From Candidatus Nitrotoga sp. CP45 (GTDB lineage: Bacteria; Pseudomonadota; Gammaproteobacteria; Burkholderiales; Gallionellaceae), in contig CAMCFJ010000005.1 in assembly GCA_945874105.1 (NCBI GenBank), positions 1 to 64,000 of the forward strand: 64,000 bases of DNA. Reading direction: 5' to 3'. Below the pieces are notes generated by a model. That model was not told where the DNA came from and searched no databases. It saw only the letters and a program-made list of their open reading frames with translations. Positions 1-27,372 of the stretch are shown here, in pieces. Each line of letters begins with the position of its first letter. Positions within the stretch are counted from its first letter, which is position 1. A program made the translations under genes and the position numbers.

Positions 1-1946
1 GTATCGGTATCAGTGTCCGTATCGGTGTCCGTATCAGTGTCCGTATCGGTATCAGTATCCGTATCAGTGTCCGTATCAGTGTCCGTATCAGTGTCCGTAT
101 CGGTGTCCGTGTCGGTGTCGGTGTCGGTATCCGTGTCGGTGTCGGTATCAGTATCCGTATCGGTGTCCGTATCGGTGTCCGTGTCGGTGTCGGTGTCCGT
201 GTCGGTGTCGGTGTCGGTATCGGTATCCGTGTCGGTGTCGGTATCAGTGTCCGTATCGGTGTCCGTATCGGTGTCCGTATCGGTGTCCGTATCAGTGTCC
301 GTATCGGTATCGGTATCGGTATCGGTATCGGTATCGGTATCGGTATCGGTATCAGTATCCGTATCAGTGTCCGTATCAGTGTCCGTATCGGTGTCCGTGT
401 CGGTGTCGGTGTCGGTGTCGGTATCAGTATCCGTATCCGTATCCGTATCGGTATCAGTATCCGTATCAGTGTCCGTATCAGTGTCCGTATCGGTGTCCGT
501 GTCGGTGTCGGTATCGGTGTCGGTATCGGTATCGGTATCGGTGTCCGTGTCGGTATCGGTGTCCGTGTCGGTATCAGTGTCCGTATCGGTGTCCGTGTCG
601 GTGTCGGTGTCGGTATCGGTATCGGTATCGGTATCGGTATCGGTATCGGTATCGGTATCGGTGTCGGTGTCGGTGTCCGTGTCGGTGTCGGTATCAGTAT
701 CCGTATCGGTGTCGGTGTCGGTGTCGGTATCGGTATCGGTATCGGTATCAGTATCCGTATCAGTGTCCGTGTCCGTATCAGTGTCGGTGTCGGTATCCGT
801 GTCGGTGTCGGTATCAGTATCCGTATCGGTATCAGTATCCGTATCAGTGTCCGTATCGGTGTCCGTATCGGTGTCGGTATCAGTATCCGTATCAGTGTCC
901 GTATCGGTGTCCGTGTCGGTGTCGGTGTCGGTATCGGTGTCGGTATCGGTATCGGTATCGGTATCGGTATCGGTGTCAGTATCCGTATCGGTATCAGTGT
1001 CCGTATCGGTGTCCGTATCAGTGTCCGTATCGGTATCAGTATCCGTATCAGTGTCCGTATCAGTGTCCGTATCGGTGTCCGTGTCGGTGTCGGTATCGGT
1101 ATCAGTATCCGTATCCGTATCAGTGTCCGTATCGGTGTCCGTGTCCGTGTCGGTGTCGGTGTCGGTATCGGTATCGGTATCGGTGTCCGTGTCGGTATCA
1201 GTGTCCGTGTCGGTATCAGTGTCCGTATCGGTGTCCGTGTCGGTGTCGGTGTCGGTGTCGGTATCGGTATCGGTATCGGTATCGGTATCGGTATCGGTAT
1301 CGGTATCAGTGTCCGTATCAGTGTCCGTATCGGTGTCCGTATCGGTGTCCGTATCGGTGTCCGTGTCGGTGTCGGTGTCGGTATCGGTATCGGTATCGGT
1401 ATCGGTATCGGTATCGGTATCGGTGTCGGTGTCGGTATCGGTATCGGTATCGGTATCAGTGTCCGTATCTGTATCCGTATCCGTATCCGTATCCGTGTCC
1501 GTGTCCGTGTCGGTATCTGTATCCGTGTCCGTGTCCGTGTCCGTGTCGGTATCTGTATCCGTATCCGTATCCGTATCCGTATCGGTATCCGTATCGGTGT
1601 CGGTGTCGGTATCAGTGTCCGTATCGGTGTCCATATCAGTGTCCGTATCGGTATCGGTGTCCGTATCAGTATCCGTATCGGTATCGGTGTCCGTATCAGT
1701 ATCCGTATCCGTATCGGTATCAGTGTCCGTATCGGTGTCGGTGTCGGTATCAGTGTCCGTATCAGTGTCCGTGTCGGTATCAGTGTCGGTATCAGTGTCC
1801 GTATCGGTATCGGTATCGGTATCAGTATCAGTATCAGTATCAGTATCGGTATCAGTGTCCGTATCGGTATCAGTGTCCGTATCAGTGTCCGTATCAGTAT
1901 CGGTATCGGTATCAGTATCAGTATCGGTATCAGTATCAGTATCCGT
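1..1946 (-). repeat. Six-base tandem repeat coding (Asp-Thr)n
   Basis: On the minus strand each unit reads GAY-ACN. There are 324 dipeptide units without a single indel or stop. Both Asp codons and all four Thr codons occur, in short blocks of identical units, so the DNA is far more varied than the protein. The only amino-acid change seen is one Thr codon turned into ATG at 1632-1634. The array runs past position 1, so its true length is unknown and assembly collapse is possible. Confidence 0.95.
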
Positions 1947-2849
1947 GTCGTCGTCGTCATCATCATCAGAAGTTGGACTTGTTGGCGACGTTGGACTCGT
2001 TACCGTTGTTGCCGTAGTTGGTGTAGTCGCAGACGTGACCGTAGTTGGTGTAGTCGCAGACGTGACCGTAGTTGGTGTAGTCGCAGATGTGACCGTAGTT
2101 GGTGTAGTCGCAGATGTGACCGTAGTTGGTGTCGTGGCGGATGTGACCGTAGTTGGTGTAGTCGCAGACGTGACCGTAGTTGGTGTCGTGGCGGATGTGA
2201 CCGTAGTCGGCGTAGTCGCGGATGTGACCGTAGTCGGCGTAGTCGCAGACGTGACCGTAGTTGGTGTAGTCGCAGACGTGACCGTAGTTGGTGTCGTGGG
2301 GGTAGTCAGAGCCGTGGGGCGGACCAGTGGCGTGGGGATAGTCGGTAGTGGGGGGCGAATCGGTTTATCAACAATTTCTACACCAATAGGCGTTACAACA
2401 TTCGGTGCCAATGGCCCTGGAGGCTCATTATGTGCTTCGGGTGGGTTGGTCACCTCCACGTCGTCTTGGGGAAGCGGCTGGTCAACAAGTGGCACGGGAA
2501 TTTGGAACCCTTTGCTGTTGGAATCTATGAATGGGACGTCTTTTCCAGTATCCACAGCCTGGCGATTTATACCTAAACCCTCGTCATGAATGCCGCCTTC
2601 AGCCACTGTACGATGATCTCGATTGTTGTCTAACGTTTTGGCGTCGGACTGAATATTTTCGGTGCCAGCACCTTCAACCTGTCCCGGTACTCCGGTTTTG
2701 ATGTCGGCCGCACCCATGCTCTCTTTGACTTCCTCGTGGCCAAGCACAGTCAAATCGTCCAACAAAGCAGCCTGATGCTGCTGATTCAGTCCAGCACCTT
2801 CGTTGGCTGGCTGTGCTTGATTTGGAGTATTGTGTTCGTGGGTAGCCAT
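1..2849 (-). CDS. Giant Asp-Thr repeat surface protein, probable type I secretion substrate (partial, 3' end outside window)
   Basis: The gene starts at ATG 2849 with a good ribosome binding site (GAGGAG about 9 bases upstream) and is open to the left edge: 949 codons are visible and no stop. Residues 1-182 are low-complexity and polar, begin [10 protein letters not shown] and have no signal peptide. Residues about 183-279 are ten near-perfect copies of a 9-residue Thr/Pro/Ser/Ala unit. Seven consecutive Asp follow at 295-301, then 324 Asp-Thr dipeptides to the window edge, with one Thr-to-Met exception near residue 406. Lack of an N-terminal signal fits a type I substrate with a C-terminal signal, and genes for all three type I secretion parts lie next to it. 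A matrix or adhesin role, with metal or calcium binding by the acidic repeat, is inference. The family is not recognised. The overlapping plus-strand Val-Ser frame is an artefact of the same repeat. Confidence 0.8.
2014..2301 (-). repeat. 27-bp tandem repeat, ten copies plus a partial one
   Basis: Ten full 27-bp copies lie at 2014-2283, then a partial one. On the coding (minus) strand each copy gives a 9-residue unit rich in Thr with Ser, Ala, Pro and Val. Copies differ by only a few bases (for example GTC/GTG-type changes at the Ala and Thr codons). It forms a Thr/Pro-rich linker between the N-terminal part of the giant protein and its Asp-Thr tract, like stalk or linker segments in other surface proteins. 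Confidence 0.95.
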
Positions 2850-8802: not shown

Positions 8803-11800
8803 ATGAATAAAACTTATTTGTCACTTAAGCGGAATATTAGTGGTAGGTTAGCAGGGGAAGAGTTTGGTGGCATTTTGCGCCAGTTGCTCCGTACGCCTGA
8901 TTTGCACCGATTATTGCCGTGGCTGGGCTTTTCCACTATGTTGTCCAATGTTCTGGCGCTGGCGCTGCCTCTCGCGATTCTTCAGATTCTTGACCGCGTA
9001 GTATCCAACAAGTCCCTGGAGACTTTGACTTTGCTGGTTGTCGGGGTAATCATCGCGTTGATTCTGGAAGAAGTTTTGCGCTCCATCAATGTGCATATCA
9101 CTAGTTGGCTGGGTTCGCGCTTCGAGCACAATACCAGTATTGCTGCGCTCGAACGGTTGATGCATGTTCCGTTGCAACATTATCAGCGGGACGAGCCAAG
9201 CGTGCATGAGGAGAGAGTGCTGGCCACCACCATGGTGGCCAAGTTTTATTCTGACCAGGCGCTGTTGGTGTTATTTGATTTACCTTTTGTGTTTATCTTT
9301 TTGGTATTGATCTACATCATTGGCGGCTGGCTGGTCGCCTTGCCGATTTTGCTACTGCTGCTGTTCTCTTGCTTGATTTATTATTTCGGCAATTGGATGC
9401 GCAAGCAGGTTCAGCAACGCATTATTCAGGACGACCGCCGACAAGGATTTTTGACCGAGGTATTGTCCTGCATTTATTCGGTGAAGATCCTGGCCGTTGA
9501 ATCCCTGATGCTGCGTCGCTATGAGCGCTTGCAGGCGACGAGTTCTGGGCTGGGCGAGTCACTGATACGCGGTAATGCACTGGCTGGAAATATGGGCATA
9601 CTGTTTGCACAGATTATGACTGTGTCGGTGATTTTCGCCAGTGCGTGGTTGGTGATGAGCGGAAAAATGACTCCTGGTGGTCTGGCCGCATGTATGATGT
9701 TGTCGGTGCGCGCGCTGCAACCGTTGCGCCGTGGCTTGTCGGTGTGGATGCGCTACCAAATTTTTGTTGCGGCACATAACAGGCTTAACCAGGTGTTCGA
9801 GTTACCCTACGATCACGACGAGGAAAAACCGGTAATTCAGCCGGTTAAAAAAGGACTGGAACTGCGTAATGTTACCTTGAGCTACGAAGGTGAAAATAAC
9901 TTTCGGCTCGACCCGAACATGACATCGAGGGATTCGCGTAATACCCCTTTGGGCAAAGGGGAGGGCGCCGCGCTACTTTCCAACCTTTCACTGACGCTGG
10001 AGGCGGGACAGTGCATTGCCATTCTGGGGGTGAGCGGTAGCGGTAAAACCAGTTTGCTGTCGCTAATGGGCGGCTTGGTGTGTCCCGACTCGGGCGAAAT
10101 TCTGGTGGATGGACTGCCGTTGAACAGCTTTGCTACTAGCAGTGTCTCCAGGGAAATTGCCCTATTGCCGCAAACCGGCACGATTGTATCCGGCAGTATT
10201 CTTGAAAACCTGACCATGTTTGATACTAGCCTCAACGAGGAAGCATTAAGCATTTCGAGCAAATTGGGGCTAAATCAAATCGTGGCAGGCATGAAGTCTG
10301 GTTACGAAACAAATATCGGTGAGGGCGTGGCGGACACCCTGCCGGCTGGTGTGCGCCAGATTATCACCATTATCAGGGCACTGGTGTGTAAGCCCAGTGT
10401 CATCCTGTTCGACGAAGCCAATATTTCCCTGGATATTCACTCGGATCAGCTGCTGCGCGACTATCTGGCAGATCAGAAAGGGACTTGCAGCGTGGTGTTG
10501 GTGACCCACCGTCCGTCGCTTATCAGTATTGCCGACAAAATCTATTCGCTGGTCGATGGCCATTTGCATGAGGGCATCGTCGAGCCTCGTTTAGATGCTG
10601 CTGTCGCCCTATCAGCTTCGGCAGACCTGCTCAATTTGCCGGAGCGCCCAAAATCTGCCGAAGCGCTTTCTGCCATCATCCACCACCAGTTTGATGAGGA
10701 ATCCGATCTGTCGATATGTTTATTGCCGCTTTTGGATGCGGTTAAATGGCAGGGTCAACCACGGGGGTTGGCCGAAGCCATGCCACATTTAGTGAAACGC
10801 ATGGATATTACCGTGCTGTGCCACACCATGGCCAATCTTGGGCTTTTCCCCAAGCACCTTAACGGTCATCTGGCACAATTGGATTATCGCCTGATGCCCT
10901 GCCTTTTTGTGCCGCCCGCCAAGGCTGCTATGGTGATTTTGAAGCGCTTGCCTAACGGTAATTTATGGGTGTTTGACAGCTTCTTGCGCGCCGAAACAGA
11001 AATAAATCCAACCGCTGTCGAGTGGGGGGAAATCTACATGTTCCAAAAGGCGGATGTTTCGGACAAGTCGCGCCGCTCCGAATCAAGCTGGATCGGTGCG
11101 TTATTGTTACGCTTCCGCAGACATATTTTGTTGTCGTTAGTTATTTCGATGACGGGAGCGTTGCTCAGTTTGACCCCTCCTTTGTTTCTGCGGGCAATCT
11201 ACGATATGGTGTTGCCGTCCGGAGATATTATGCTGGGCGCTTTCCTGCTGGTCGGGGTGGTTGTCGCCATTACCGTCGATAGTTTATTGCGCAATCTCAA
11301 GAGCCATATCATGGCTTTTGTTGGTGGTCGTTTTGAATATATTTTGGGTAATACTCTGTTCCAGCGCATCGTCAACCTGCCCACCGCTTCTACTGATGGA
11401 GCAACGGTCAGCAATCAGGTGGCGCGGTTTAAGAACCTTGAGAATTTGCGCGATTTTTTTCTGGGGCCGGTTTCATTGTTGGTGTTTGAAATACCCTCGA
11501 CCCTAGTGTTGTTGCTGGCGATTGCCATTATTAATCCCTGGGTGTTATCGGTGATATTGGCGTCGGCGCTGTTTTTTGGTTTGCTGTTGTTTCTTACGCG
11601 AACATCCGGCGATCTTGCGGCGTCAAATTCCAGAATGTTGACTGCGAAACGCTGGGGATTTTTGAGCGAAGGTTTGACCGATATGAAATCTATTCGATCG
11701 GTGGGTGCGGATCAGACTTGGGTAAGCCGGTTTCGTGAATTGAGCGGCAAATCGGTAATGGCCAATTTCAAAAATAACCAAGTGCATGCCCGCATCAACG

Positions 11801-12774
11801 GCGTGGCGCATATAATAGGCTCGACTACCGGCCTGATGGGTTTAGCGGTATCCGCTTACCTGACGATACATGGCAATATAAGTGCTGGCACCATGGTGGC
11901 GACCATGATGATCCTGTGGCGTGTCACCGGTCCGATGCAGAATATATTTATGGCTGCATCCACGGTGGTGGATATCCGTTCCAGTCTCCGTCAGATCGAT
12001 AATCTGATACGACTCCGCAATGAATCGGATACCGGGGTGATGCAAACTGTTACTCCTGTTGTGGGTGGATCGCTCAGTTTTGCACGGGTTTCATTCCGTT
12101 ATGCCAATGATGCCGACCCGGTCCTGCTGGGAGTGTCATTTTCGGTGACGCCAGGGCAGGTAATCGTGATCGCAGGAAGTAATGGTTCGGGAAAATCCAC
12201 CGTGCTCAAGTTGATCGAGCGCATTTATATTCCGCAAGCCGGAACGGTTCGTCTCAATAGCATTGATATACGCCAGCTTACCATCGCCGATCTGCGCTCC
12301 AAAATCAGCTATATGCCGCAGCAATGCGAGCTATTTTACGGCTCGGTGATGCAAAACCTGCGCTTGGTTTACCCGGCTGCATCTGATGCGGAGGTGGAAT
12401 GGGCAGTTGAAATGGCTGGACTTACCGCAGATATAGCGGCACTTCCGCAGGGATTTGATACCCGTATATCCAACAACCGCTCGTCGCAGCAGCCGTATGG
12501 TTTTCGTCAGCGACTTTCTCTCGCGCGAACTATGCTCAAGCCGGCCAACATCGTGTTGCTTGACGAGCCTGGTACGGGTATGGATCAGTGCGGAGAAGAG
12601 GCGTTAATGCGCTGTATCGAATGGTTGCGTGGAAACTCTACGGTAATAATCGCTTCTCACCGGCCATCACACATGCGTCTGGCCGATAGCGTAATTCTGA
12701 TGCAGCGCGGCACCATGATCGCCATGGGGCCTTTTGAAAAAATAAAAGATAACATCATGTCGGAGTTAAGCTAA
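8803..12774 (+). CDS. Fused tandem type I secretion ABC exporter (two half-transporters in one chain)
   Basis: The 1323-residue protein consists of two complete export half-transporters. Half 1 has membrane segments from about residue 35 and a nucleotide-binding domain with Walker A GVSGSGKTS (409-417), Walker B LFDEA (Asp537, Glu538) and His569. Half 2 begins with a C39-peptidase-like domain (about 634-745) that lacks a recognisable catalytic Cys/His. It continues with membrane segments from about 772 and a second nucleotide-binding domain with Walker A GSNGSGKST (1125-1133), Walker B LLDEP (Asp1254, Glu1255) and His1286. Both ABC signature motifs are degenerate: LPAGVRQ (513-519) and QQPYGFRQ (1229-1236) instead of LSGGQ. 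Standard type I exporters (HlyB, LapB, RtxB) are single half-transporters of about 700 residues that dimerise. The adaptor gene starts directly after this stop codon. Export of the adjacent repeat protein is inferred from position. Confidence 0.9.
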   Translation: MNKTYLSLKRNISGRLAGEEFGGILRQLLRTPDLHRLLPWLGFSTMLSNVLALALPLAILQILDRVVSNKSLETLTLLVVGVIIALILEEVLRSINVHITSWLGSRFEHNTSIAALERLMHVPLQHYQRDEPSVHEERVLATTMVAKFYSDQALLVLFDLPFVFIFLVLIYIIGGWLVALPILLLLLFSCLIYYFGNWMRKQVQQRIIQDDRRQGFLTEVLSCIYSVKILAVESLMLRRYERLQATSSGLGESLIRGNALAGNMGILFAQIMTVSVIFASAWLVMSGKMTPGGLAACMMLSVRALQPLRRGLSVWMRYQIFVAAHNRLNQVFELPYDHDEEKPVIQPVKKGLELRNVTLSYEGENNFRLDPNMTSRDSRNTPLGKGEGAALLSNLSLTLEAGQCIAILGVSGSGKTSLLSLMGGLVCPDSGEILVDGLPLNSFATSSVSREIALLPQTGTIVSGSILENLTMFDTSLNEEALSISSKLGLNQIVAGMKSGYETNIGEGVADTLPAGVRQIITIIRALVCKPSVILFDEANISLDIHSDQLLRDYLADQKGTCSVVLVTHRPSLISIADKIYSLVDGHLHEGIVEPRLDAAVALSASADLLNLPERPKSAEALSAIIHHQFDEESDLSICLLPLLDAVKWQGQPRGLAEAMPHLVKRMDITVLCHTMANLGLFPKHLNGHLAQLDYRLMPCLFVPPAKAAMVILKRLPNGNLWVFDSFLRAETEINPTAVEWGEIYMFQKADVSDKSRRSESSWIGALLLRFRRHILLSLVISMTGALLSLTPPLFLRAIYDMVLPSGDIMLGAFLLVGVVVAITVDSLLRNLKSHIMAFVGGRFEYILGNTLFQRIVNLPTASTDGATVSNQVARFKNLENLRDFFLGPVSLLVFEIPSTLVLLLAIAIINPWVLSVILASALFFGLLLFLTRTSGDLAASNSRMLTAKRWGFLSEGLTDMKSIRSVGADQTWVSRFRELSGKSVMANFKNNQVHARINGVAHIIGSTTGLMGLAVSAYLTIHGNISAGTMVATMMILWRVTGPMQNIFMAASTVVDIRSSLRQIDNLIRLRNESDTGVMQTVTPVVGGSLSFARVSFRYANDADPVLLGVSFSVTPGQVIVIAGSNGSGKSTVLKLIERIYIPQAGTVRLNSIDIRQLTIADLRSKISYMPQQCELFYGSVMQNLRLVYPAASDAEVEWAVEMAGLTADIAALPQGFDTRISNNRSSQQPYGFRQRLSLARTMLKPANIVLLDEPGTGMDQCGEEALMRCIEWLRGNSTVIIASHRPSHMRLADSVILMQRGTMIAMGPFEKIKDNIMSELS

Positions 12775-14142
12775 ATGTTCTTTAAATCGAAAAAAACGCA
12801 TCATGAGTCGCAATCTTTGGGGCAAACTCCGCTGGGCAGCAGGGAACGCAGCCTTCTTTCCGAGAGCATTCATATCGAAGAGGAGCTGTTTCCCGTATTT
12901 GTCCGGCCTGTCATGTACCTGACTGGAGCATTGGTTTTAATTTTTCTCTTATGGGCGGGGTTAACCCGTATGAAGGAAGTTGCGCGCGCGCCGGGCGAAA
13001 TTATTCCTTCCGGCAGAGTCAAGGTGGTGCAGCATCTGGATGGTGGCGTAGTGGCGGAAATCGCGGTTAAAGAGCGCAAGTTGGTTGATCAAGGCGCAGT
13101 GCTGTTGCGTATTGATGGCACGCAAGCGTATGCCGATTATGGGCAAATGAAGGCGCACCTTGATTCATTGCTCCTGCGCGAGGAACGCTTGAAGGCATTT
13201 ACGGAAGACAAGCAGCCAGACTTTGTCGCACTTGGCATAGATCAGCCAGGCATGGTTTCTAACCAGCAGGAAATATATATCACTCAGTTGGCCACAAGAG
13301 ACTCGACCCTTTCAATATTGGATCGACAGATCGACCAGCGCAAGCAGCGTATCAATCAATTGGAAAAGGCAATGTCCGTCGCCAAAGAGCATCTAGCCCT
13401 GACTAGCGAGCTTTCCGATATGCGCGAAAATTTGGCCTCCCGGCAGTTGATAAACAAGACCGTGTTACTGGAAACAAGGCGGGCAAAAGTGACGGCTTTC
13501 GGTGAGATCGCACGCTTGACAGAAGAACTTGGTGTTTCCGGAAATGAGTTGGCAGAGATAAAAAACCGTCGTACCGACACTCTGAATCAATTGCGGAGAG
13601 ATGCGCTGGCCGAATTGGGGACTGTGCGTGCCGAGACGGCTGAGGTGAAGAAAACTCTCCAGCGCTTACAGGGTCGAGTAGATCGCCTCGAAGTGCGCGC
13701 TCCCATCCGTGGTTATATTTTGGATCTGCGTGTGCAGAACGTAGGCCAGGTTATACAGCCGGGCGCATTGCTCATGGAGGTCGTCCCCGACAAAGCCGTG
13801 CTTGAAGCCGAGGTGCGCATTACACAACGCGACATCGGCTTTGTCAGGGTAAATCAGCCAGTCCATTTGCGGGTAACAACCTACGATTATTCGAGATTCG
13901 GCTTTGTCGATGGAGTCCTGAAACGGGTGAGTGCTTCCAGCATTGTGGGCGAGGATAAAATTCCCTATTACCAGGGGCTGGTTGAGCTGAACAACCCTTA
14001 TGTCGGTGATACGCCTGGACGCAATCTCCTGCAACCCGGTATGAATGTGGAAGCGGAGATTCTAACGGGCCAGAAAACCCTGCTGGCATACTTGGTCAAG
14101 CCGTTGATCGATGCCGTCTCAATGTCGTTTATCGAGCGCTAA
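12775..14142 (+). CDS. HlyD-family periplasmic adaptor of type I secretion
   Basis: The ATG follows the exporter stop codon with no gap, so translation is probably coupled. A short cytoplasmic N-terminus, one membrane segment (about 47-65, LTGALVLIFLLWAG) and a biotinyl-lipoyl-like part (GEIIPSGRVKVVQHLDGGVV) are followed by a long coiled-coil region (about 120-300). The second lipoyl half comes next (VRAPIRGYILDLRV) and then the HlyD beta-barrel C-terminus (LLQPGMNVEAEILTGQKT). The 455-residue length and this order are standard for the family. It bridges the inner-membrane ABC exporter and the TolC-like channel encoded at 3758. Confidence 0.95.
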   Translation: MFFKSKKTHHESQSLGQTPLGSRERSLLSESIHIEEELFPVFVRPVMYLTGALVLIFLLWAGLTRMKEVARAPGEIIPSGRVKVVQHLDGGVVAEIAVKERKLVDQGAVLLRIDGTQAYADYGQMKAHLDSLLLREERLKAFTEDKQPDFVALGIDQPGMVSNQQEIYITQLATRDSTLSILDRQIDQRKQRINQLEKAMSVAKEHLALTSELSDMRENLASRQLINKTVLLETRRAKVTAFGEIARLTEELGVSGNELAEIKNRRTDTLNQLRRDALAELGTVRAETAEVKKTLQRLQGRVDRLEVRAPIRGYILDLRVQNVGQVIQPGALLMEVVPDKAVLEAEVRITQRDIGFVRVNQPVHLRVTTYDYSRFGFVDGVLKRVSASSIVGEDKIPYYQGLVELNNPYVGDTPGRNLLQPGMNVEAEILTGQKTLLAYLVKPLIDAVSMSFIER

Positions 14143-14846: not shown

Positions 14847-15224
14847 ATGACAAATGTGAACCCTCACAAAGCTACCGGGTTACGCCGGTTGGTAAATGCC
14901 CTGAGCTATTCCCTTTCTGGGCTACTACTTGCTTGGCAAGATGGAGCCGCCTTTCGTCAGGAAGTTATTCTCGCCATCGTTCTTGTGCCGGTGGCCTTCA
15001 TGGTCCCGGTAGATTTGACCCAGCGGGTGCTGCTGGTGGCTAGCGTCATGCTGGTGCTGTTGGTGGAAATGATAAACTCGGCGATAGAAGCCACCGTCGA
15101 TCGGATATCTTTGGATGTTCATCCATTGGCCAAGAGGGCAAAAGACATGGGCAGCGCTGCCGTTTTGTTGGCATTGACGAACGCCATGCTGACTTGGATC
15201 ATGATTCTTTGGCCACTGGGGTAA
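14847..15224 (+). CDS. dgkA: Diacylglycerol kinase (prokaryotic, membrane)
   Basis: DgkA phosphorylates diacylglycerol to phosphatidic acid in the inner membrane. The 125-residue protein has the family signature around residues 74-105 (EMINSAIEATVDRI ... AKDMGSAAV), including the catalytic Glu and the NxAIE/KDxGSAAV blocks, and three membrane segments. ATG 14847 gives the usual N-terminus; an in-frame GTG at 14832 would add five residues. The next gene, bcsE, starts 3 bases after its stop, so dgkA heads the cellulose operon. Diacylglycerol is released when head groups are taken from phosphatidylethanolamine, which is what BcsG does, so a recycling role for DgkA here is a reasonable inference. 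Confidence 0.93.
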   Translation: MTNVNPHKATGLRRLVNALSYSLSGLLLAWQDGAAFRQEVILAIVLVPVAFMVPVDLTQRVLLVASVMLVLLVEMINSAIEATVDRISLDVHPLAKRAKDMGSAAVLLALTNAMLTWIMILWPLG

Positions 15225-15226
15225 AG

Positions 15227-17020
15227 ATGAATATGCTCAGGCGATTCATTTCTTTGTTCTTGCGCCTATTTCGTAAAGACAGTGCTCTGACGGAAGCCAC
15301 GATCAATAAGGCCCGTCTGGGAGTGCTTGGTCTACCTGCTGAGGTTGGCCTCTGTGGCACCGGCTTGACAAGTGTTCTGCTGGTGCGGGACGAGGCGCTG
15401 GGTCAGCGTTGCGCACTCTCGTCAGCACGTAATTTCCGACAGGCAGGGCCGCTGGCCATACTGGCATCGGGAGAGTCTGGCCAGAAATTTATGGATCAGT
15501 TCGCCCGCAGCCTTGATAGCCCCGATGCATTCAGCCGCGAAGCACTTGTTTTTTTCCGTATTACCGATGCTTGTGCCGGGACCATGGGGCAACGGGGCGC
15601 TAAGCGCTTCTTTGATGAGATTGATGCTTGTGGTGTGACAGAACAATTCGCTGTGCTTGTTCAGGGGGGGCAGGCGATCTTCGATTGGCAGAACCCCGAC
15701 CGATTTATCAAACAGTGGCAAGCCTGGAAGGCTTGGGCTGCAAGTCGTCAGGCTCCCATTCTCCTGATAATCGAGGATATTAATGGAGCTCATGGTTTTT
15801 TGCCATTGCTGCAAGTTTTGCCGGAATTTGTGCCCAACCTTGCCGTGCTGGACGCGGATTACGGCGGTGGTTTGTTGACGGTTGAACGGTGGGCGGGGCA
15901 GGAAAAGGGTGTGCATCGGCAATTTGGCCTGAAATTGTCCGCGCAGGATAAATCGCTGCATTCAGATGGTTCGGAAATTGATGCTAGAGGACAGGTGGTT
16001 ATTGGTGCACCTGATCAAGGGCGAGTCATAGCGATGGCCGCTACCGTGGCCGGGGTAAAGGGAGTGCCCGCAGAATGGACACTGGTGAATAGTCTGTCTG
16101 ATATGGAAGTGGCTTGTAAAAATGCGGTGGCCGCTACCATTCTTTTGCATGCGGATGGTGACAAAGAGTTTGAAGCGCTATCGCGATTCGTTCATCGCAT
16201 GCGCCTGTCCCATCCCCGTTGTCTAAAAATCATCGTACGAGAGGTCGGCAATAAACTTCGTTATAACAACGAATTGATGCTCCTGCATTTAGGGGTCAAC
16301 TTAATGGTGTACAAGGAAATTTCGTTCTCTCGCTTATTGCAGGTTATAGATGACACGACTGCCCAGATATTCAGTCGCCCGGTTGAGAGTGATTATCTTC
16401 TTGCTGTGCAGGCCGCTGAGCCGAACCAGGTTGCCGGTTACCTGTCGCCATCCACCTTCTGCAGCGAAGTAACGGCAATGCTCAAGCGTTCCGAGCGTAT
16501 TAGTCTGAGCCACAGCTTGGTGCGTCTTCCAATTCTTGCCCGGGTAGCACATCTGGATGCTCTACAAGCCTGCCGGGCACGAAGGTTTGGCGACATCTTT
16601 ACTGCCGATCATAATAGTGTGTATTTGTTTTTGTTTGCTTGCCGGGAGCCGGATGTAGATTCGACGCTTGACCGGCTTTTTTCCGCGCCTGTGACTGAGC
16701 TATTTTCTTTCCATATCATTGAACCGACAGTGGAGCTGATATGGGAAACCCTGGGTCAGCTGCGACGAGACAATGAAAGTTTGCCTATGCCCGATTATTC
16801 GGCGATGCTGAAAGTCGATTTGCCGATTTTGAATGATAAAGTCGAACGCCCGGTCGCAACAGCTAACCTCCAGGAGGCGGGGGGGCAGATTTCCCCGCCT
16901 TCATTGACTGAAATCACTGAGCCCAGGTTGATAAGCCCCGAGATTAAGCACTGGACCATGCGACCTTTGCCTCTGCCTCGGCATGCAGCGACTGATATGC
17001 TTCCCACTTTGTTTGAATAA
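15227..17020 (+). CDS. bcsE: Cellulose biosynthesis c-di-GMP-binding protein BcsE
   Basis: BcsE is the cytosolic c-di-GMP-binding partner of the cellulose synthase complex in enterobacterial-type systems. The 597-residue protein matches it in the central degenerate receiver-like region (KIIVREVGNKLRYNNE) and in the C-terminal GGDEF-like domain with an RxGD I-site (Arg453-Phe-Gly-Asp456), which binds c-di-GMP. The start was set at ATG 15227, just after dgkA; an upstream ATG at 15194 lies inside dgkA and is unlikely. bcsF, bcsQ and bcsA follow on the same strand. Confidence 0.9.
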   Translation: MNMLRRFISLFLRLFRKDSALTEATINKARLGVLGLPAEVGLCGTGLTSVLLVRDEALGQRCALSSARNFRQAGPLAILASGESGQKFMDQFARSLDSPDAFSREALVFFRITDACAGTMGQRGAKRFFDEIDACGVTEQFAVLVQGGQAIFDWQNPDRFIKQWQAWKAWAASRQAPILLIIEDINGAHGFLPLLQVLPEFVPNLAVLDADYGGGLLTVERWAGQEKGVHRQFGLKLSAQDKSLHSDGSEIDARGQVVIGAPDQGRVIAMAATVAGVKGVPAEWTLVNSLSDMEVACKNAVAATILLHADGDKEFEALSRFVHRMRLSHPRCLKIIVREVGNKLRYNNELMLLHLGVNLMVYKEISFSRLLQVIDDTTAQIFSRPVESDYLLAVQAAEPNQVAGYLSPSTFCSEVTAMLKRSERISLSHSLVRLPILARVAHLDALQACRARRFGDIFTADHNSVYLFLFACREPDVDSTLDRLFSAPVTELFSFHIIEPTVELIWETLGQLRRDNESLPMPDYSAMLKVDLPILNDKVERPVATANLQEAGGQISPPSLTEITEPRLISPEIKHWTMRPLPLPRHAATDMLPTLFE

Positions 17021-17031
17021 GCCCTTTGATA

Positions 17032-17202
17032 ATGCTTGATAATTTTTTGTTATCCCTCCTTTGGGGCGTACTGTTAGCTGGCTTTGCCTATTATGTATTG
17101 AGGTACCGGTTGCTACGACGCTTGTTCTTGCGTCGGAATTTGCGTTGCATAGTGCCCTATAAGCCCAGTCACGCTGAACGGGTGCCTGGCACAAGGGTCT
17201 AA
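17032..17202 (+). CDS. bcsF: Small membrane protein, BcsF-like
   Basis: A 56-residue ORF lies between bcsE and bcsQ and begins MLDNFLLSLLWGVLLAG. It has one membrane segment (about residues 4-22) followed by a very basic cytoplasmic tail (RYRLLRRLFLRR). Size, topology and position match BcsF, which anchors BcsE to the membrane synthase and assists BcsG. Sequence identity to enterobacterial BcsF is low, so the name rests mostly on position. Confidence 0.8.
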   Translation: MLDNFLLSLLWGVLLAGFAYYVLRYRLLRRLFLRRNLRCIVPYKPSHAERVPGTRV

Positions 17203-17205
17203 CTC

Positions 17206-17979
17206 ATGTTCAAAATTGCCATTGTTTCAGCCGCAGGTGGGGTGGGTCGATCCACCCTGACGGCCAGTCTGGCCACTTTACTTGCCCAGCGCGGAATTGC
17301 CGTCCTGGCTCTTGACTTCGATCCGCAGAACCTATTGTCCACTCTGCTCGGTAGTGATGAAGCTAGCCTGGGCGGACTGCTGCCCGACTTCCTGACAAGG
17401 AAAGAGTTTGGCATGAGTGCGCTTGTTAATTCAAACGATGTGGCTTGTTTGCCATTTGGTCGATCTAGTGAAGCTAGTCTTGTCACTTTTGAACAACACC
17501 TGCATGCAGAACCCGAGTGGCTCAAGAAATGTATCGCTCAGATTAATTATCCGCCTGGTGCTTTCCTACTAATGGATACACCCCGCCTGCCTTCTCTCTA
17601 TGCACGTGAGGCCATGGTTGCAGCAGACCTTGTGTTAGTTGTGTTGGCGTCAGATGCTCGTTCCCTGGCATTGCTGCCAGTGGTAGAAGCTGCACTGTCC
17701 CGGTGCGCTCCAGGGCATCAGCCCATCTATGTGATGAACGGTCTGGATAGTACCCGAGCGCTGCAAAGCGATTTATTGGCACGATTCCGGGCGTCGTTAC
17801 AGATGCGGCTATCACCTTATCCCATTCATCGGGATGAAGCGATTCCACGTGCAGTCGCAAATCGGGCGAACTTACAGAACGTAAGCCCGGATTCCCTGGT
17901 CGCCCATGATTTGAACGGCTTGCTCAACTGGCTGCTTGCCGGGCCTGCAAGTAGTCTCGGCGGAAAGGCGCAAAGTTGA
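17206..17979 (+). CDS. bcsQ: Cellulose biosynthesis ParA/MinD-like ATPase BcsQ
   Basis: A SIMIBI-class ATPase of 257 residues starting 3 bases after bcsF. The deviant Walker A reads AAGGVGRST near residues 9-17, with Arg where ParA/MinD proteins usually have Lys (GGxGK[ST]); the upstream KGGxGK Lys is replaced too (AAGG). The Walker B-like region is FLLMDTP. BcsQ in Escherichia coli helps to place and assemble the cellulose secretion complex at the pole with BcsE. The stop overlaps the bcsA start by one base (TGATG). Confidence 0.9.
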   Translation: MFKIAIVSAAGGVGRSTLTASLATLLAQRGIAVLALDFDPQNLLSTLLGSDEASLGGLLPDFLTRKEFGMSALVNSNDVACLPFGRSSEASLVTFEQHLHAEPEWLKKCIAQINYPPGAFLLMDTPRLPSLYAREAMVAADLVLVVLASDARSLALLPVVEAALSRCAPGHQPIYVMNGLDSTRALQSDLLARFRASLQMRLSPYPIHRDEAIPRAVANRANLQNVSPDSLVAHDLNGLLNWLLAGPASSLGGKAQS

Positions 17980-20543
17980 TGCGCCATTTTCTGCTCTGGA
18001 CCGCTCGTCATTTGGGAGTGTCGCGGCCAGATCAACCAGGCCTGTGGCTGAAGCGACTGTTCTGGTTGCCAAAGGCTGATGAATTGGCTGCATCGGCTCG
18101 GCTGGAGGTTGGGTCGAGCCCTGATCCGCTTGGCTGGCTGGCTGAGGAACTGGGAGTGGTTGATAAACGTAGCGTCTGGCAGTGGATGCTGCGTTTATTT
18201 AGTTACCCTCCGGGTCTAGCCGCACACACTGAAACATCTTTATGGCGCACTTTTTTTGCCTTGTCGGGCCACACTATTGGCCTGCTGTTTTCCGCTGTGG
18301 TGTGGATTGTAATGGCAGCAGTTCGAGTCCTGCGCTGGCTTTTGCATCGGCTGCTCTCACTCCTGCCGGTGGTGAATCATGGAGCGGTCGGTCGCCGCAT
18401 GGAGGGCTGGCTGGAGATACATTCTTTTCACAATACTTGGCTACTCTGGTTGCTGGTTCTATGTTCAGTATTCTTTTTCTGGCTGGTGGTCACCACTCCC
18501 TTTACTTGGCCTGGGCAGCTTATATTCCTTGTCTGCTTGTGGGGAACTGCGCTGTTCGTGCGGCGCATTCCCGGTAATCTGCCCTCTTTGATATTGATGA
18601 TCCTTTCAGTGCTGGCTTCATTTCGCTACGGCTGGTGGCGATTGACCCAGACCATCCCGCTGGAATCCGGCTGGGAGACTTTTCTTGCCATCGGTTTACT
18701 CCTTGCGGAGATATATACCTGGCTGGCACTTCTGCTCGGTTTTATTCAGAACGCCTGGCCCCTTAAACGGAACATCTTGAAACTGCCAGCGGACACTGCC
18801 CTATGGCCCAGTGTCGATGTATTCATTCCAACCTACAACGAGTCGCTCAAGGTGGTGAAGCCGACGGTTCTTGCTGCCAAGCATATAGACTGGCCCAGAG
18901 ACAAGCTCAATATTTATATTCTCGACGATGGGCACCGGGATGAATTCCGTCACTTTGCCAAGGAAGCCGGGGTAGGCTACATAATTCGACCTGATAACAC
19001 CCATGCCAAGGCGGGTAATCTGAACCATGCACTAAAATTGACCAGCGGCGAGTATGTGGCCATTTTTGACTGCGACCACTTGCCTACCAGCTCCTTTCTG
19101 CAGTCGACCATGGGCTGGTTTTTCAAGGACAAGCGCTGCACCATGGTGCAGACACCCCATCACTTCTATTCCCCTGACACCTTCGAGCGCAACCTCGGTA
19201 CTTTCCGCCGGATCCCCAACGAGGGTGCCTTGTTCTATGGCTTGATCCAGGACGGCAACGATTTTTGGAATGCCTCCTTTTTCTGTGGCTCTTGTGCGGT
19301 GATGCGTCGGGGGCCAGTTGAAGAGGTGGGAGGGATGGCCGTTGAAACGGTGACCGAAGATGCCCACACCGCCCTGAAACTTCATCGGCAGGGCTACACT
19401 ACCGCCTACATTAATATTCCCTTGGCAGCAGGATTGGCTACCGAAAGCCTCTCTAGCCACATCGGGCAGCGCATCCGCTGGGCACGAGGCATGGCGCAGA
19501 TTTTTAGAATCGACAATCCATTCCTGGGTAAAGGGTTGGGCTTCTTCCAGCGCATCTGTTACAGCAACGCGATGTTGCATTTCTTTTATGGCATTCCGCG
19601 CCTTATCTTTCTGACCGCCCCCTTGACCTATCTTTATTTCGAAGTTCACATAATCAGCGCGGCATCCGCCATGCTCGCCCTTTTCGTACTGCCGCACATG
19701 CTGCAGGCCAATCTGGCCAATGGACACATCCAAGGGTTGCATCGGCACTCGTTCTGGGCCGAGGTATATGAATCGGTTTTGGCTTGGTACATCATTTTGC
19801 CCACTACTGTCGCCATCTTCAATCCGGGAGCCGGGAAATTCAATGTCACTGCCAAAGGAGGCTTGGTCGAGCACTCCTTCTTCGACTGGGTCATTTCCAA
19901 ACCGTATATCGTGCTAGCTATACTTAATTTGGCCGGGTTGATCATCGGCCTGGGGCGGCTTTTTTTCTGGAACACTTTTGAAGCGGGAACAGTGTTGCTC
20001 AACCTGAGTTGGACTATCTACAACATTGTGATATTGGGTGCAGCTATTGGCGTCGCTACTGAAGCCAGGCAGGTGCGAATAGCCCACCGAGTATCTTCCA
20101 ACTTGCTGGTGGCCTTGCATTTTAGGGATGGGAATACCAGGATGTGTCGCACCGAAGATTATTCCGTGACTGGCCTTGGCCTGATACTCGAGCGGGAATT
20201 AGAATTGCCGGTGCAAGAACGGGTTTGGGTTTCACTTTGGCATGGCGAGGTGGAATGCGCCTTTCCCGCAAGGGTAATTGCCAGTCATGGCAATAAGCTT
20301 GGAGTTCAGTTCGACAACCTGGACATAACGCAGGAAGAAAATCTGATTCAGTGTACTTTTGCCCGGGCCGATGCCTGGAGCAGGTGGGCTTGTGAGCTAG
20401 ACCCGGATCACCCGATGCAGAGCCTGAAAGAAATCGCCATCTTCGGATTCAAGGGCTACCGCAGTCTGTTGCATAACATGGGCAAGGGTTTGGCGAAGCA
20501 GCGTCAGCTAGTGCGGGGTTGGCTAGGGAGGCAGGTGATTTGA
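17979..20543 (+). CDS. bcsA: Cellulose synthase catalytic subunit (UDP-forming)
   Basis: BcsA polymerises UDP-glucose into beta-1,4-glucan and moves it through its own membrane channel. The GT2 residues are all present: DDG at 316-318, DCD at 364-366, TED at 459-461 and QRIRW at 497-501. A C-terminal PilZ domain carries RQVRIAHR (697-704) and DYSVTG (727-732), so c-di-GMP activation is expected. About eight membrane segments flank the catalytic loop. The length of 854 residues is normal. The start at ATG 17979 overlaps the bcsQ stop; a TTG one codon earlier is possible. Its usual partner bcsB is not downstream but on the opposite strand at 27373-29667. Confidence 0.97.
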   Translation: MRHFLLWTARHLGVSRPDQPGLWLKRLFWLPKADELAASARLEVGSSPDPLGWLAEELGVVDKRSVWQWMLRLFSYPPGLAAHTETSLWRTFFALSGHTIGLLFSAVVWIVMAAVRVLRWLLHRLLSLLPVVNHGAVGRRMEGWLEIHSFHNTWLLWLLVLCSVFFFWLVVTTPFTWPGQLIFLVCLWGTALFVRRIPGNLPSLILMILSVLASFRYGWWRLTQTIPLESGWETFLAIGLLLAEIYTWLALLLGFIQNAWPLKRNILKLPADTALWPSVDVFIPTYNESLKVVKPTVLAAKHIDWPRDKLNIYILDDGHRDEFRHFAKEAGVGYIIRPDNTHAKAGNLNHALKLTSGEYVAIFDCDHLPTSSFLQSTMGWFFKDKRCTMVQTPHHFYSPDTFERNLGTFRRIPNEGALFYGLIQDGNDFWNASFFCGSCAVMRRGPVEEVGGMAVETVTEDAHTALKLHRQGYTTAYINIPLAAGLATESLSSHIGQRIRWARGMAQIFRIDNPFLGKGLGFFQRICYSNAMLHFFYGIPRLIFLTAPLTYLYFEVHIISAASAMLALFVLPHMLQANLANGHIQGLHRHSFWAEVYESVLAWYIILPTTVAIFNPGAGKFNVTAKGGLVEHSFFDWVISKPYIVLAILNLAGLIIGLGRLFFWNTFEAGTVLLNLSWTIYNIVILGAAIGVATEARQVRIAHRVSSNLLVALHFRDGNTRMCRTEDYSVTGLGLILERELELPVQERVWVSLWHGEVECAFPARVIASHGNKLGVQFDNLDITQEENLIQCTFARADAWSRWACELDPDHPMQSLKEIAIFGFKGYRSLLHNMGKGLAKQRQLVRGWLGRQVI

Positions 20544-20583
20544 TGGTTTCAGGCGGTATAAATTTCGGGAGTCGATAGCACTC

Positions 20584-22152
20584 ATGGGTTACTGGAATAT
20601 TTATTTTTTTGCCAAGCTGGGTCTGTTTTACGGCGGGTTTATTGGTTTTCACTGGCTATCTAACCTGGCCTTCGCCATTTCACTTGCACTGCCCTTGGCG
20701 TCTGCCCGGCATCGCCTTATACGCGCGATTCTGGCGGTGCCAGTGGGGCTGGCCCTGCTTTATTATGACTCCTGGCTGCCACCAATTTCGCGCGTCCTTT
20801 CTCAAAGGGGGGCTCTGACAGGGTTTAGCGGTGAGTACCTGTTGGAACTCCTGGGCCGCTTTGTAAATATATGGGTGATTGTTGCTCTGGTGCTTTTGCT
20901 GGTGGTCTATCTGATGCTGCGTCGCCGTCTGCGATTTGCCACTCTGACTATTCTTGGCATCCTGAGCGTCCCCCTTGCTAGCTTGCTGAGTGGCCATCTC
21001 GCCCCAAGTGTTTCTCCCCGCCCGGAGCTGGCGGATAAAAACGCTCCAGTTTCGCAGATTAAGCAGGAGTTGGAGCCGACGGCCCAGCTGGAAGTTTTTT
21101 ACGTCGCTGAACAGGGCAAGCGGGTGAGCTTTCCATCCATGGCAAATTCTGCCGCGCCCTTTGATGTGGTGTTTCTGCATGTCTGTTCCCTTTCATGGGA
21201 TGACATGGACTACGTGGGCGAAAGCAACTCGACCCTGTTAAGCCATTTTGACGTAGTGTTTCGTCGGTTCAATACGGCTGCCAGTTACAGCGGCCCTGGT
21301 ACCTTACGCTTGTTTCACAGTAACTGCGGCCAACTGTTGCACCGCAAAATGTATGAAGCGGATGCAACCCAGTGCAACCTGTTCCACAATTTTGAGGCTG
21401 CCGGCTTTGAAGTACATGGCCTGCTCAATCATGACGGACACTATGAACAGTTCGCAAGTCTGGTACAGGGATCATCTGGTCTTGGGGTAAAGCTGGATGA
21501 TAATCGCTACGCGCCCGAAGCTATGCGCAGCTTTGACGACACGCCTGTTTACGAGGATTTGTCGCTACTCACGGAGTGGTGGAAGCGCCATGAGCCAACT
21601 GGCCGACCACGAGCCTTGTACTACAACACGACTACCTTGCATGATGGAAACCGTGTTCCTGGAGTCAAGTCGCGTTCTAGTCTGGAAACTTTCAAGCCGC
21701 GACTAGGTAAATTAATGTCGGATTTTGATCGCTTCATTACCTTTCTTGAGGAAAGAGGGAGGCCGGTGGTAGTGATTCTGATGCCAGAACACGGTGCTGC
21801 TTTACGGGGCGACAAGATACAGATATCCGGTATGCGTGAAATCCCCAATCCCAAGATTACCCTGGTTCCTGCCGCCATCAAGCTGGTAGGCTTCAAGGGT
21901 AAGCACGGGGAAGCTCCACACCAACCCTTGCAGGTGGACAAGCCAGTTAGTTACTTTGCGATTAGCACACTTCTGGCCGACTTTATTGCGGATAGTCCCT
22001 TTGCCGGGACTGGTGGCAAGCCCTTGGCGGAGCGGGTACAAAACCTGCCGGGTACACCTTTCGTGAGCGAAAACGAGGATGTTGTCGTAATTGGACGTGA
22101 GAAGGGTTACTTGATGCGCTCGGAGGGCACCTGGGTCGATTATCAGCCTTGA
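20584..22152 (+). CDS. bcsG: Cellulose phosphoethanolamine transferase BcsG
   Basis: BcsG moves phosphoethanolamine from phosphatidylethanolamine onto cellulose in the periplasm. The 522-residue protein has an N-terminal block of four or five membrane segments (about 1-145) and a C-terminal alkaline-phosphatase-like domain. The probable nucleophile is Ser236 in SYSGPG (matching Ser278 of E. coli), followed by SNCGQ; the zinc-side motif PEHGAAL lies near residue 402. It begins 40 bases after bcsA and ends 6 bases from the convergent bcsC stop. The product is therefore probably modified cellulose. Confidence 0.92.
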   Translation: MGYWNIYFFAKLGLFYGGFIGFHWLSNLAFAISLALPLASARHRLIRAILAVPVGLALLYYDSWLPPISRVLSQRGALTGFSGEYLLELLGRFVNIWVIVALVLLLVVYLMLRRRLRFATLTILGILSVPLASLLSGHLAPSVSPRPELADKNAPVSQIKQELEPTAQLEVFYVAEQGKRVSFPSMANSAAPFDVVFLHVCSLSWDDMDYVGESNSTLLSHFDVVFRRFNTAASYSGPGTLRLFHSNCGQLLHRKMYEADATQCNLFHNFEAAGFEVHGLLNHDGHYEQFASLVQGSSGLGVKLDDNRYAPEAMRSFDDTPVYEDLSLLTEWWKRHEPTGRPRALYYNTTTLHDGNRVPGVKSRSSLETFKPRLGKLMSDFDRFITFLEERGRPVVVILMPEHGAALRGDKIQISGMREIPNPKITLVPAAIKLVGFKGKHGEAPHQPLQVDKPVSYFAISTLLADFIADSPFAGTGGKPLAERVQNLPGTPFVSENEDVVVIGREKGYLMRSEGTWVDYQP

Positions 22153-22158
22153 CCGTGA

Positions 22159-26187: not shown

Positions 26188-27362
26188 GATTTTTGCCAAG
26201 AGGGAAGCAGGGTGCCATTTTTCGTAAAGTGGTAGCGCCCTTCCATCCAGCCATGGGCAAAGAGGGAAAGTACTTGTTCATAGTAGGCGTCCGGTCGCGG
26301 TGGGCGAGCCGTCAGTCGATCGCGTTGTCCCTGCAGGGCGACGCTGTCTCCCCGGGCGGCCAGGAAGGGTAGTAGTGCGGCGGAAAATCCTGATGGCCCC
26401 GGGCCATTGGCTACACCCGTGATTATATTGACAGACTCTGGCGGGTAGCCGTGGCGCGCGATAAAGCTGGCCATGGGGGCAAAAGCAGCAAGAAGTCGTG
26501 GTTGGGCAGGAGCGTCGGGCGCAAGCATGCCGGCCCACAGATAAACCCGGATGGCGTTATAGCCACCTGCGCCTTTTTCTGCTCCGGCACTGTCAATTCG
26601 GAATCCCTTGCTGTCCTCATAGACCGTCCAGTCAGGCGAGAATCCCTGTGGGGCAGATTCCAGGAGGATCCTCTGGGAGGATTCCGAGATCCGCTGCCAA
26701 GTGGGATCAGGACTACGGCTGCTTAACCAGTCCATTAGCTGCATGGGCAGGTAGCTGGGATTAAGACGCCAAGCATTCTTCCTCGTATGGAAGCCGCGCG
26801 GTGCAGGTAGCAGGGTTGGGCCTAAACCCGGAAGGTCTGCGGTTTCTTCGCGCAAAATGCGGCTGGCCAGCAGCGATGAAAGCGCAACGAAACGGCGCTC
26901 ACCCCAGAGCCGGCCAGCTTCACCCAACGCATAGACTATCCACAGATCGGCATCTGATGCCGAATTGTTGTCCAGCACCCCCCAGCTGCCATCATCTCTG
27001 CGACCCCATAGCCAAGCTGGCAGATGGCTGGTCAGATCGCCTTTTGCCAGGTTTTTTTCGGTCCATTCCAGGATTTTGTCAAAGGTTTTGCGATCGTTGG
27101 CTACCAAGGCGAAAAAAAGTGCATAGGCCTGTCCTTCCGATACGGTCTGTTTACGGGGGGTACTGCCATCCACTACCCGTCCTCCCTCGTTGAGGAGCCC
27201 AGACTTGAAGCTTTGCCAAGCAGGCCAGTCTGTCTGGCAAGTAGGTTCAACTGTTACTGCTTGAGCAGCCCCCAAACAGAAGTAGAGCGCAGCGAGAATT
27301 TGGCATCCCTGGCATAGCAAAATGCCTATCTTGCGTCTGGAATCCATAAATAAATATTCCAT
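26151..27362 (-). CDS. bcsZ: Periplasmic endo-1,4-beta-glucanase of GH8, BcsZ, with Asn at the expected catalytic base
   Basis: BcsZ trims cellulose in the periplasm. The 403-residue form starts at ATG 27362, ten bases after bcsB; MDSRRK at 27347 is an alternative. A signal peptide ends near AAQAV. The protein follows E. coli BcsZ closely (EGGRVVD, LPAWLWG, NSASDADLW, GFSPDW, GYPPE, GFSAALLPF). The catalytic acid is present: Glu76 in SEGQAYA, matching Glu55. The catalytic base Asp243 of E. coli, in SYDAIRVY, corresponds here to Asn269 in GYNAIRVY, read directly from codon AAC. So the enzyme may be weak, use another base, or act as a binding protein. Confidence 0.93.
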   Translation of the reverse strand: MEYLFMDSRRKIGILLCQGCQILAALYFCLGAAQAVTVEPTCQTDWPAWQSFKSGLLNEGGRVVDGSTPRKQTVSEGQAYALFFALVANDRKTFDKILEWTEKNLAKGDLTSHLPAWLWGRRDDGSWGVLDNNSASDADLWIVYALGEAGRLWGERRFVALSSLLASRILREETADLPGLGPTLLPAPRGFHTRKNAWRLNPSYLPMQLMDWLSSRSPDPTWQRISESSQRILLESAPQGFSPDWTVYEDSKGFRIDSAGAEKGAGGYNAIRVYLWAGMLAPDAPAQPRLLAAFAPMASFIARHGYPPESVNIITGVANGPGPSGFSAALLPFLAARGDSVALQGQRDRLTARPPRPDAYYEQVLSLFAHGWMEGRYHFTKNGTLLPSWQKSCSSAPSRLPSR

Positions 27363-27372
27363 TCCCAAGTGT

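Follow-up and report, generated by a model that had tools for sequence, protein, structure and literature searches.

A fused type I secretion exporter with replaced ATP-binding signatures in Candidatus Nitrotoga sp. CP45, and its association with a family of repeat proteins

We analyzed a 64,000-nucleotide stretch of DNA from Candidatus Nitrotoga sp. CP45 (contig CAMCFJ010000005.1, positions 1 to 64,000; “the window” hereafter) that encodes both halves of an ATP-binding cassette (ABC) exporter of the type I secretion system (T1SS) in a single chain. At the level of sequence, the two halves are fused and descend from two paralogues, the LSGGQ signature is replaced in both, genes for the remaining T1SS components lie alongside, and the exporter co-occurs with one family of repeat proteins. 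We consider it likely that this protein is the inner-membrane exporter of a dedicated T1SS in which the fused paralogues use ATP asymmetrically and the repeat protein is the cargo.

Domain organization of the exporter

The single frame carries two ABC_tran and two ABC_membrane matches (Pfam), in agreement with a preliminary description of this DNA, which had recognized two type I exporter halves in one 1323-residue protein. TIGR03375 (LssB-type T1SS permease/ATPase) is the top NCBIfam model for each half. The second half (C-half) matches profile positions 3–691, the C39-like part included, and has the order C39-like domain, transmembrane domain (TMD), nucleotide-binding domain (NBD). The first half (N-half) joins the profile only from position 157 and thus has no C39-like part; the earlier assignment of this domain to the second half alone was correct. 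Taken singly, the halves scored 340.8 and 385.5 bits, below the model’s cut-off of 693.1; the whole fused protein scored 713.6. In the C39-like domain, the three residues that precede the conserved V/I/L strand include no histidine in any of the 18 C-halves inspected (0/18); these residues would correspond to the position of the C39 peptidase catalytic histidine.

LSGGQ is absent from both halves of the window exporter. We read TLPAGVRQ in the first NBD, where phmmer aligned it to the LSGGQRQ stretch of HlyB (7sgr), and QQPYGFRQ in the second, so that the alteration of both signatures, described previously as LPAGVRQ and QQPYGFRQ, is borne out. Within its own genome the exporter is the sole full-length match; the 33 further rows match other ABC proteins over part of their length.

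Recurrence of the fusion

The fusion is genuine and occurs widely, though with a patchy distribution. We classed 97 loci: the exporter is a fused frame in 55 and two separate frames in 36, and six (L013, L048, L063, L097, L107 and L108) are cut by contig ends. Among the fused loci, L066, L072 and L073 are each a second copy; setting these three aside leaves 52 fused loci in most counts. The fused relatives share 31–81% identity with the window exporter, and isolate genomes are among them. In a sample of 399 genomes from the order, eight match the window exporter at an expectation value (E) of 1e-85: the genome of origin, four with fused exporters at 49–58% identity (G669, G575, G695 and G554), two with fused exporters at 31–33% (G432 and G476), and one with a split pair (G482). 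Ten of 369 genomes sampled from the class match. Apart from the genome of origin, all have the halves in adjacent, separate frames, the N-half without and the C-half with a C39-like domain (in G138, and in one locus of G103, the N-half runs into a contig end). A collection of named genomes yielded 112 confirmed relatives; the best 80 of these, which were used here, include Gallionella, Sulfuricella, Rhodocyclales, Pseudoduganella, Methylobacter, Thiohalocapsa, Oceanospirillum, Rhodospirillales and Magnetococcales. Identity to the window reaches 81% in fused loci from records labeled Gallionella sp. None of 18 genomes sampled from the same genus, several of them incomplete, matched the window exporter at E 1e-60.

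It might be supposed that an assembly or sequencing error merged two genes, and the window does begin within a repeat, where the contig itself starts. The fused frame nevertheless recurs in 55 of the 97 loci, isolates among them, and occurs in G695, a genome of one contig. This recurrence led us to reject an error for the family, and we regard the chance of one as negligible. The preliminary description had envisaged that close homologues might prove to be separate genes, with a sequencing error here; the close homologues are fused.

Spread of the exporter on plasmids was also considered and rejected: in a plasmid search with the N-half at E 1e-50, only four Azospirillum plasmids matched. One of them, pAB510c of Azospirillum sp. 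B510 (L166, 1–11879), carries a fused exporter of 1363 residues divergent to the gene for a very large immunoglobulin-like protein; the exporter is annotated just as “ATP-binding cassette domain-containing protein.”

Ancestry of the two halves

A tree of 207 rows placed 89 N-halves in one clade and 88 C-halves in another (SH-aLRT support of 100 for each); a branch supported at 94 has all 30 canonical exporters to one side. Because each of the half-clades mixes fused and split members, the two paralogues predate the fusion. At least two changes between the fused and split states are needed in each clade; L087/L090, for instance, are fused yet placed among the split N-halves. The fusion arose more than once or was undone, and we can only infer which state is ancestral. 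The “main fused clade” referred to below is a cut chosen on the N-half tree; it comprises 43 fused loci and the window, with nine other fused loci apart.

Replacement of the signatures and retention of other ATP-site residues

The controls were the 30 best-ranked of 43 TIGR03375 matches; two of the 13 omitted (G143 and G084) are split-pair C-halves studied here. All 30 have S, G, G and Q in the signature together with the Walker A lysine, the Walker B glutamate and the H-loop histidine. The signature glutamine occurs in none of the members of the family that were read (0/89 N-halves, 0/87 C-halves), and the split pairs (36 loci) are degenerate too. The signature is not part of the two peptide patterns that retrieved the named loci. 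Two C-halves have gaps at the motifs, one of them split and the other, that of the fused L086, truncated where its contig ends; in L126 the frame of the C-half is interrupted. Since pairs encoded by separate genes share the altered signatures, we rejected fusion as the cause of their loss.

The changes follow a pattern. Proline replaces serine in 79 of 89 N-halves and isoleucine or valine replaces glutamine in 73; the second glycine and the last glutamine are present in all 89. The resulting LPxG[VI]xQ is a replacement consensus, not random decay. Among the 87 C-halves, proline is found in 65, the second glycine in 50, and phenylalanine, methionine or leucine at the glutamine position in 83.

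Outside the signature, the two halves differ in what they keep. The Walker B glutamate is retained in 82/89 N-halves vs. 86/87 C-halves, and the Walker A lysine in 88/88 C-halves. The H-loop histidine is kept in 51/89 N-halves vs. 75/87 C-halves; its loss in the remaining 38 and 12 means that the earlier statement that the H-loops are intact holds for the window and fails for the family. On the tree, the H-loop changes state at least 14 times among N-halves and at least three times among C-halves. No split pair with both halves read lacks the histidine in both (0/35). Of the two ATP sites, the better kept is the one built from the Walker motifs of the C-half and the signature of the N-half. 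The loci form a natural series, from canonical half-exporters through degenerate exporters, first split and then fused, to fused exporters without either H-loop histidine, in which the amount of ATP hydrolysis that a type I secretion exporter requires can be tested directly.

A linked family of repeat proteins and the other T1SS components

The window’s Asp-Thr protein, within whose tract the contig begins, is one of a family whose members share a conserved N-terminus of ~130 residues (LFDDLTVLSR ... GNENIQ ... S.G.QDPVP.VDQPLP) followed by a low-complexity tract. The repeat unit varies by genome (DT, DS, DA, STTAPV, SPTV, TEPAT, TTATSA, NPTTPV and others). Partners that could be read to the end finish in IDKIEW or IDKLQW (L058, L057, L036/L072 and L065) or in VDKMEY (L082), and Pfam RTX repeats (PF00353) are present in the complete partners of L058 and L057; the L079 partner is cut by its contig end. 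The family is defined by its N-terminus, and within it the tract changes almost freely and the ends are kept. Past the N-terminus, net charge ranges from ~0 to ~-48 per 100 residues, many of these tracts being cut by contig ends. Tracts of STTAPV, TTATSA and NPTTPV units are near neutral, and those of DT, DS and DA units are strongly acidic. Because near-neutral tracts occur among the partners, the suggestion that the exporter is tuned to a highly charged substrate is unsupported. L067, with a tract charge of +55, was set aside, since its tract is probably an out-of-frame reading of the same DNA repeat.

This one family is linked to the main fused clade. Of the 36 main-clade loci with 2 kb or more of sequence downstream of the exporter, 33 have a partner beside it, as against none of 33 split loci; overall, 35 of 52 fused loci have one (window not counted). 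Isolates that carry both exporter and partner include Pseudoduganella ginsengisoli (L065) and Oceanospirillum maris (L100). The partner model (A3) was built from 14 exporter-adjacent loci, and 21 more main-clade loci match it. When the N-terminal model was applied to the 399 genomes of the order, it found exactly the five that have a close fused exporter, although two of these had supplied no row to the model; it did not match the two distant fused genomes or the split genome of that sample. The co-occurrence of fused exporters with such repeat proteins, which the preliminary description had proposed to check, holds for the main clade and hardly beyond it. The repeat protein is probably the export substrate, to judge from this co-occurrence. 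Retention of the repeat protein as a LapA/LapG-type adhesin was considered and rejected: no match to the LapG-type protease family (PF06035) was found in the genome of origin, and the control, Caulobacter vibrioides, was positive.

Neighbors were counted at E 1e-8 against the window’s own proteins, in loci with room for them (4.5 kb or more upstream for TolC and the regulator, 2 kb or more downstream for HlyD). In the main clade, an outer membrane factor of the TolC type was present in 33/33 loci, a LuxR-AAA regulator in 31/33 and an HlyD-type adaptor in 36/36; for the fused loci overall (52, window not counted), the counts were 35/38, 35/38 and 44/45. The adaptor and channel of a tripartite T1SS are encoded beside the exporter in the window, as they are in the main clade wherever a locus has room. 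HlyD follows the exporter pair in all 33 split loci, and neither a window-type TolC nor the regulator was found in the 22 split loci with upstream room. At a looser E of 1e-5, L089 (split) has a TolC-like match and L118 (split) a LuxR-type match, so that the partners of split systems may simply be more distant. Among 31 partner TolC proteins, Pfam found SPOR in at least 18 and Cds6_C in at least three; these are lower bounds, because the scan covered the TolC frames and the tails of L052 and L057 are separate frames. The portrayal of an asymmetric exporter was apt: the fusion is asymmetric by construction and stands next to HlyD and a SPOR-tailed TolC.

A proposed mechanism and its alternatives

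These observations can be accommodated in the following model. Two paralogous half-exporters, encoded by separate genes in other lineages, are joined here; because both reside in one chain, the asymmetric pair would always form. The fused chain would constitute the entire ABC dimer, and HlyD and TolC would complete the channel through which the repeat protein encoded at 3–2849 on the minus strand is probably exported. The C39-like domain presumably engages this protein. T1SS substrates leave the cell C-terminus first, and the repeat protein would be expected to exit in the same way. The ATP site composed of the C-half Walker motifs and the N-half LPxG[VI]xQ signature would perform the work, and that composed of the N-half Walker motifs and the C-half signature would serve mainly as an ATP-binding hinge. 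Extracellular folding of C-terminal RTX repeats, present in some complete partners, could supply part of the pull.

Several points weigh against this model. Its polarity is weakened by the C-half signature, the second glycine of which is kept in 48/52 fused vs. 2/35 split C-halves, and the window exporter, which retains every Walker and H-loop residue in both halves, shows no polarity by itself. Nine of 52 fused exporters, including those of the isolates Oceanospirillum linum (L079) and O. maris (L100), lack the H-loop histidine in both halves, which is awkward for a fully active site. As for the cargo, the window’s partner is cut off before its C-terminal end, and one of the three complete partners scanned (L065) has no PF00353. 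Three main-clade loci with room (L076, L098 and L105) have no partner, and a partner is found in only one of the nine other fused loci, as a weak match (E 6e-5). Finally, the tree was a quick one, and the program warned that long branches meet where the C-halves join the rest.

Some of the same facts invite the thought that both ATP sites are slow, the exporter being a low-turnover, ATP-bound gate, and that secretion draws its force chiefly from the substrate as it folds outside the cell. The universal absence of the signature glutamine, the doubly histidine-free exporters and the RTX repeats in the complete partners of L058 and L057 all speak for such a gate. Near-invariant retention of the C-half Walker A lysine and Walker B glutamate would be needless if hydrolysis were unimportant, and we view this alternative as possible, if on the unlikely side. 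A broader version, which we put forward only tentatively and hold to be doubtful, would have this T1SS lineage replace both signatures (LPxG[VI]xQ and LPxx[FML]xQ) and drop the H-loop histidine repeatedly, with the slow ATP-bound gate matched to secreted low-complexity tracts that vary in repeat unit from genome to genome and outside folding doing most of the driving. Outright decay, with transport lost, would explain the missing signature residues and the H-loop losses in relatives. It is, however, very improbable: when the window gene was compared with L051, L058 and L053, the ratio of nonsynonymous to synonymous substitution rates was 0.18–0.21 (NG86) or 0.24–0.28 (YN00), two signature residues are invariant in the N-halves, and main-clade loci with room keep TolC and HlyD without exception.

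The exporter might instead be the two ABC proteins of a MARTX-type four-component T1SS (RtxB/RtxE), fused. According to the part of the source available to us, two different ABC proteins serve one system in the MARTX T1SS, and both are apparently needed for secretion (PMC3034196); the split relatives studied here likewise comprise two ABC proteins and HlyD. The gene order differs, however, being N-half, C-half, HlyD in the window and the split loci vs. rtxBDE divergent from rtxHCA in MARTX loci, as described in the same part of that source (PMC3034196). No toxin-like neighbor was found among the window proteins scanned. We deem a MARTX origin unlikely.

Comparison with known exporters

Among known systems, LssB/LapB-type exporters (TIGR03375) resemble the window exporter in the C39-like, TMD, NBD order of the C-half and in the adjoining HlyD; the window exporter differs in being fused, in its N-half without a C39-like domain, in having halves under the model’s cut-off, and in having no LSGGQ. 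HlyB (PDB 7sgr and 8dck) and the HlyB-subfamily exporter 5l22 are solved structures that align with both halves, but they are half-size chains (707 and 572 residues, respectively), and the HlyB signature is LSGGQRQ. P-glycoprotein (ABCB1) and other full-length ABCB proteins have two halves in one chain and align with the fused exporter. They have two consensus sites and are not known to carry a C39-like domain or to work with HlyD or TolC. RtxB/RtxE, compared by description only (PMC3034196, in part), are likewise two unlike ABC proteins but are separate genes with another gene order and a toxin substrate. A parallel in ATP use comes from type I exporters with one degenerate site, such as TM287/288, TmrAB, ABCC1 and CFTR (PMC7756269 and PMC8277102, the parts available). 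They too have two unlike NBDs, and one ATP site is expected to differ. They retain one active, consensus-like site, whereas in the present family, which consists of T1SS exporters, neither signature is consensus: the signature glutamine is missing from both halves of every member read. We class the fused exporter as a variant of the T1SS, outside both the MARTX systems (as described) and the one-consensus-site exporters.

In the portions available to us of the literature on fused, heterodimeric or signature-degenerate T1SS exporters, we found no description of a fused or doubly degenerate one; the exporters treated there are those with a C39-like domain, type I exporters in which one ATP site is degenerate, and the two-ABC-protein MARTX systems. 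Type I secretion is unmentioned in the accessible part of PMC3770913, and a search for literature on the Gallionella stalk with type I secretion found nothing.

Features of the window and its related loci

The coordinates of the exporter’s motifs and of the adjoining T1SS genes are collected below.

Table 1. Positions of the exporter, its motifs and the associated genes in the window.
Feature	Position	Strand	Remarks
Partner repeat protein, 949 aa read	3..2849	-	Truncated by contig start; the conserved N-terminus is followed by TTPTTVTSA repeats and these by an Asp-Thr tract
TolC-type outer membrane factor, 1021 aa	3758..6823	+	C-terminal SPOR and Cds6_C domains
LuxR-type helix-turn-helix and AAA ATPase regulator, 553 aa	6859..8520	+	Between TolC and exporter
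Fused T1SS ABC exporter, 1323 aa	8803..12774	+	TMD1-NBD1-C39-like domain-TMD2-NBD2; one uninterrupted open reading frame
NBD1 Walker A GVSGSGKTS	10027..10053	+	Residues 409-417
NBD1 signature TLPAGVRQ	10336..10359	+	Residues 512-519; replaces LSGGQRQ
NBD1 Walker B and D-loop LFDEANISLD	10405..10434	+	Residues 535-544
NBD1 H-loop THRPS	10504..10518	+	Residues 568-572
C39-like domain of second half	10696..11097	+	~Residues 632-765, borders approximate; TIGR03375 alignment begins at residue 636, PrtD-type alignment at 770
NBD2 Walker A GSNGSGKST	12175..12201	+	Residues 1125-1133
NBD2 signature QQPYGFRQ	12487..12510	+	Residues 1229-1236
NBD2 Walker B and D-loop LLDEPGTGMD	12556..12585	+	Residues 1252-1261
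NBD2 H-loop SHRPS	12655..12669	+	Residues 1285-1289
HlyD-type periplasmic adaptor	12775..14142	+	TIGR01843 334.7 bits vs. cut-off 208.65; begins at the base after the exporter stop codon

Other genes accompany the exporter in some loci. In the Magnetococcales loci L095 (5951–7276 and 11299–12657) and L099 (8605–9930 and 13826–15148), the fused exporter lies between two HlyD genes. A glycosyltransferase of the N-acetylglucosamine type, or a homologue, is encoded in L060, L065, L075, L082, L087, L090, L092 and L095; those of L060 and L065 belong to PF11397, and the PF11397 genes of the genome of origin sit on a different contig. A glycosyltransferase in the locus would fit glycosylation of the Thr/Ser-rich tracts. 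L058 encodes a protein of ~810 residues with an APH-type kinase domain (16509–18962), with homologues in L057, L068, L080 (a partial match), L081, L096 and L101; a search of the genome of origin, run with no positive control, found no APH-like protein.

Directly downstream of the T1SS genes in the window lie cellulose genes (15194–29667), encoding BcsE, BcsQ, a PilZ-bearing BcsA-like synthase and BcsG, along with BcsC, a GH8 enzyme and BcsB on the minus strand. Farther on, at 32078–35362, is a gene for a DabA-type inorganic carbon transporter subunit, preceded by an antiporter-like gene.

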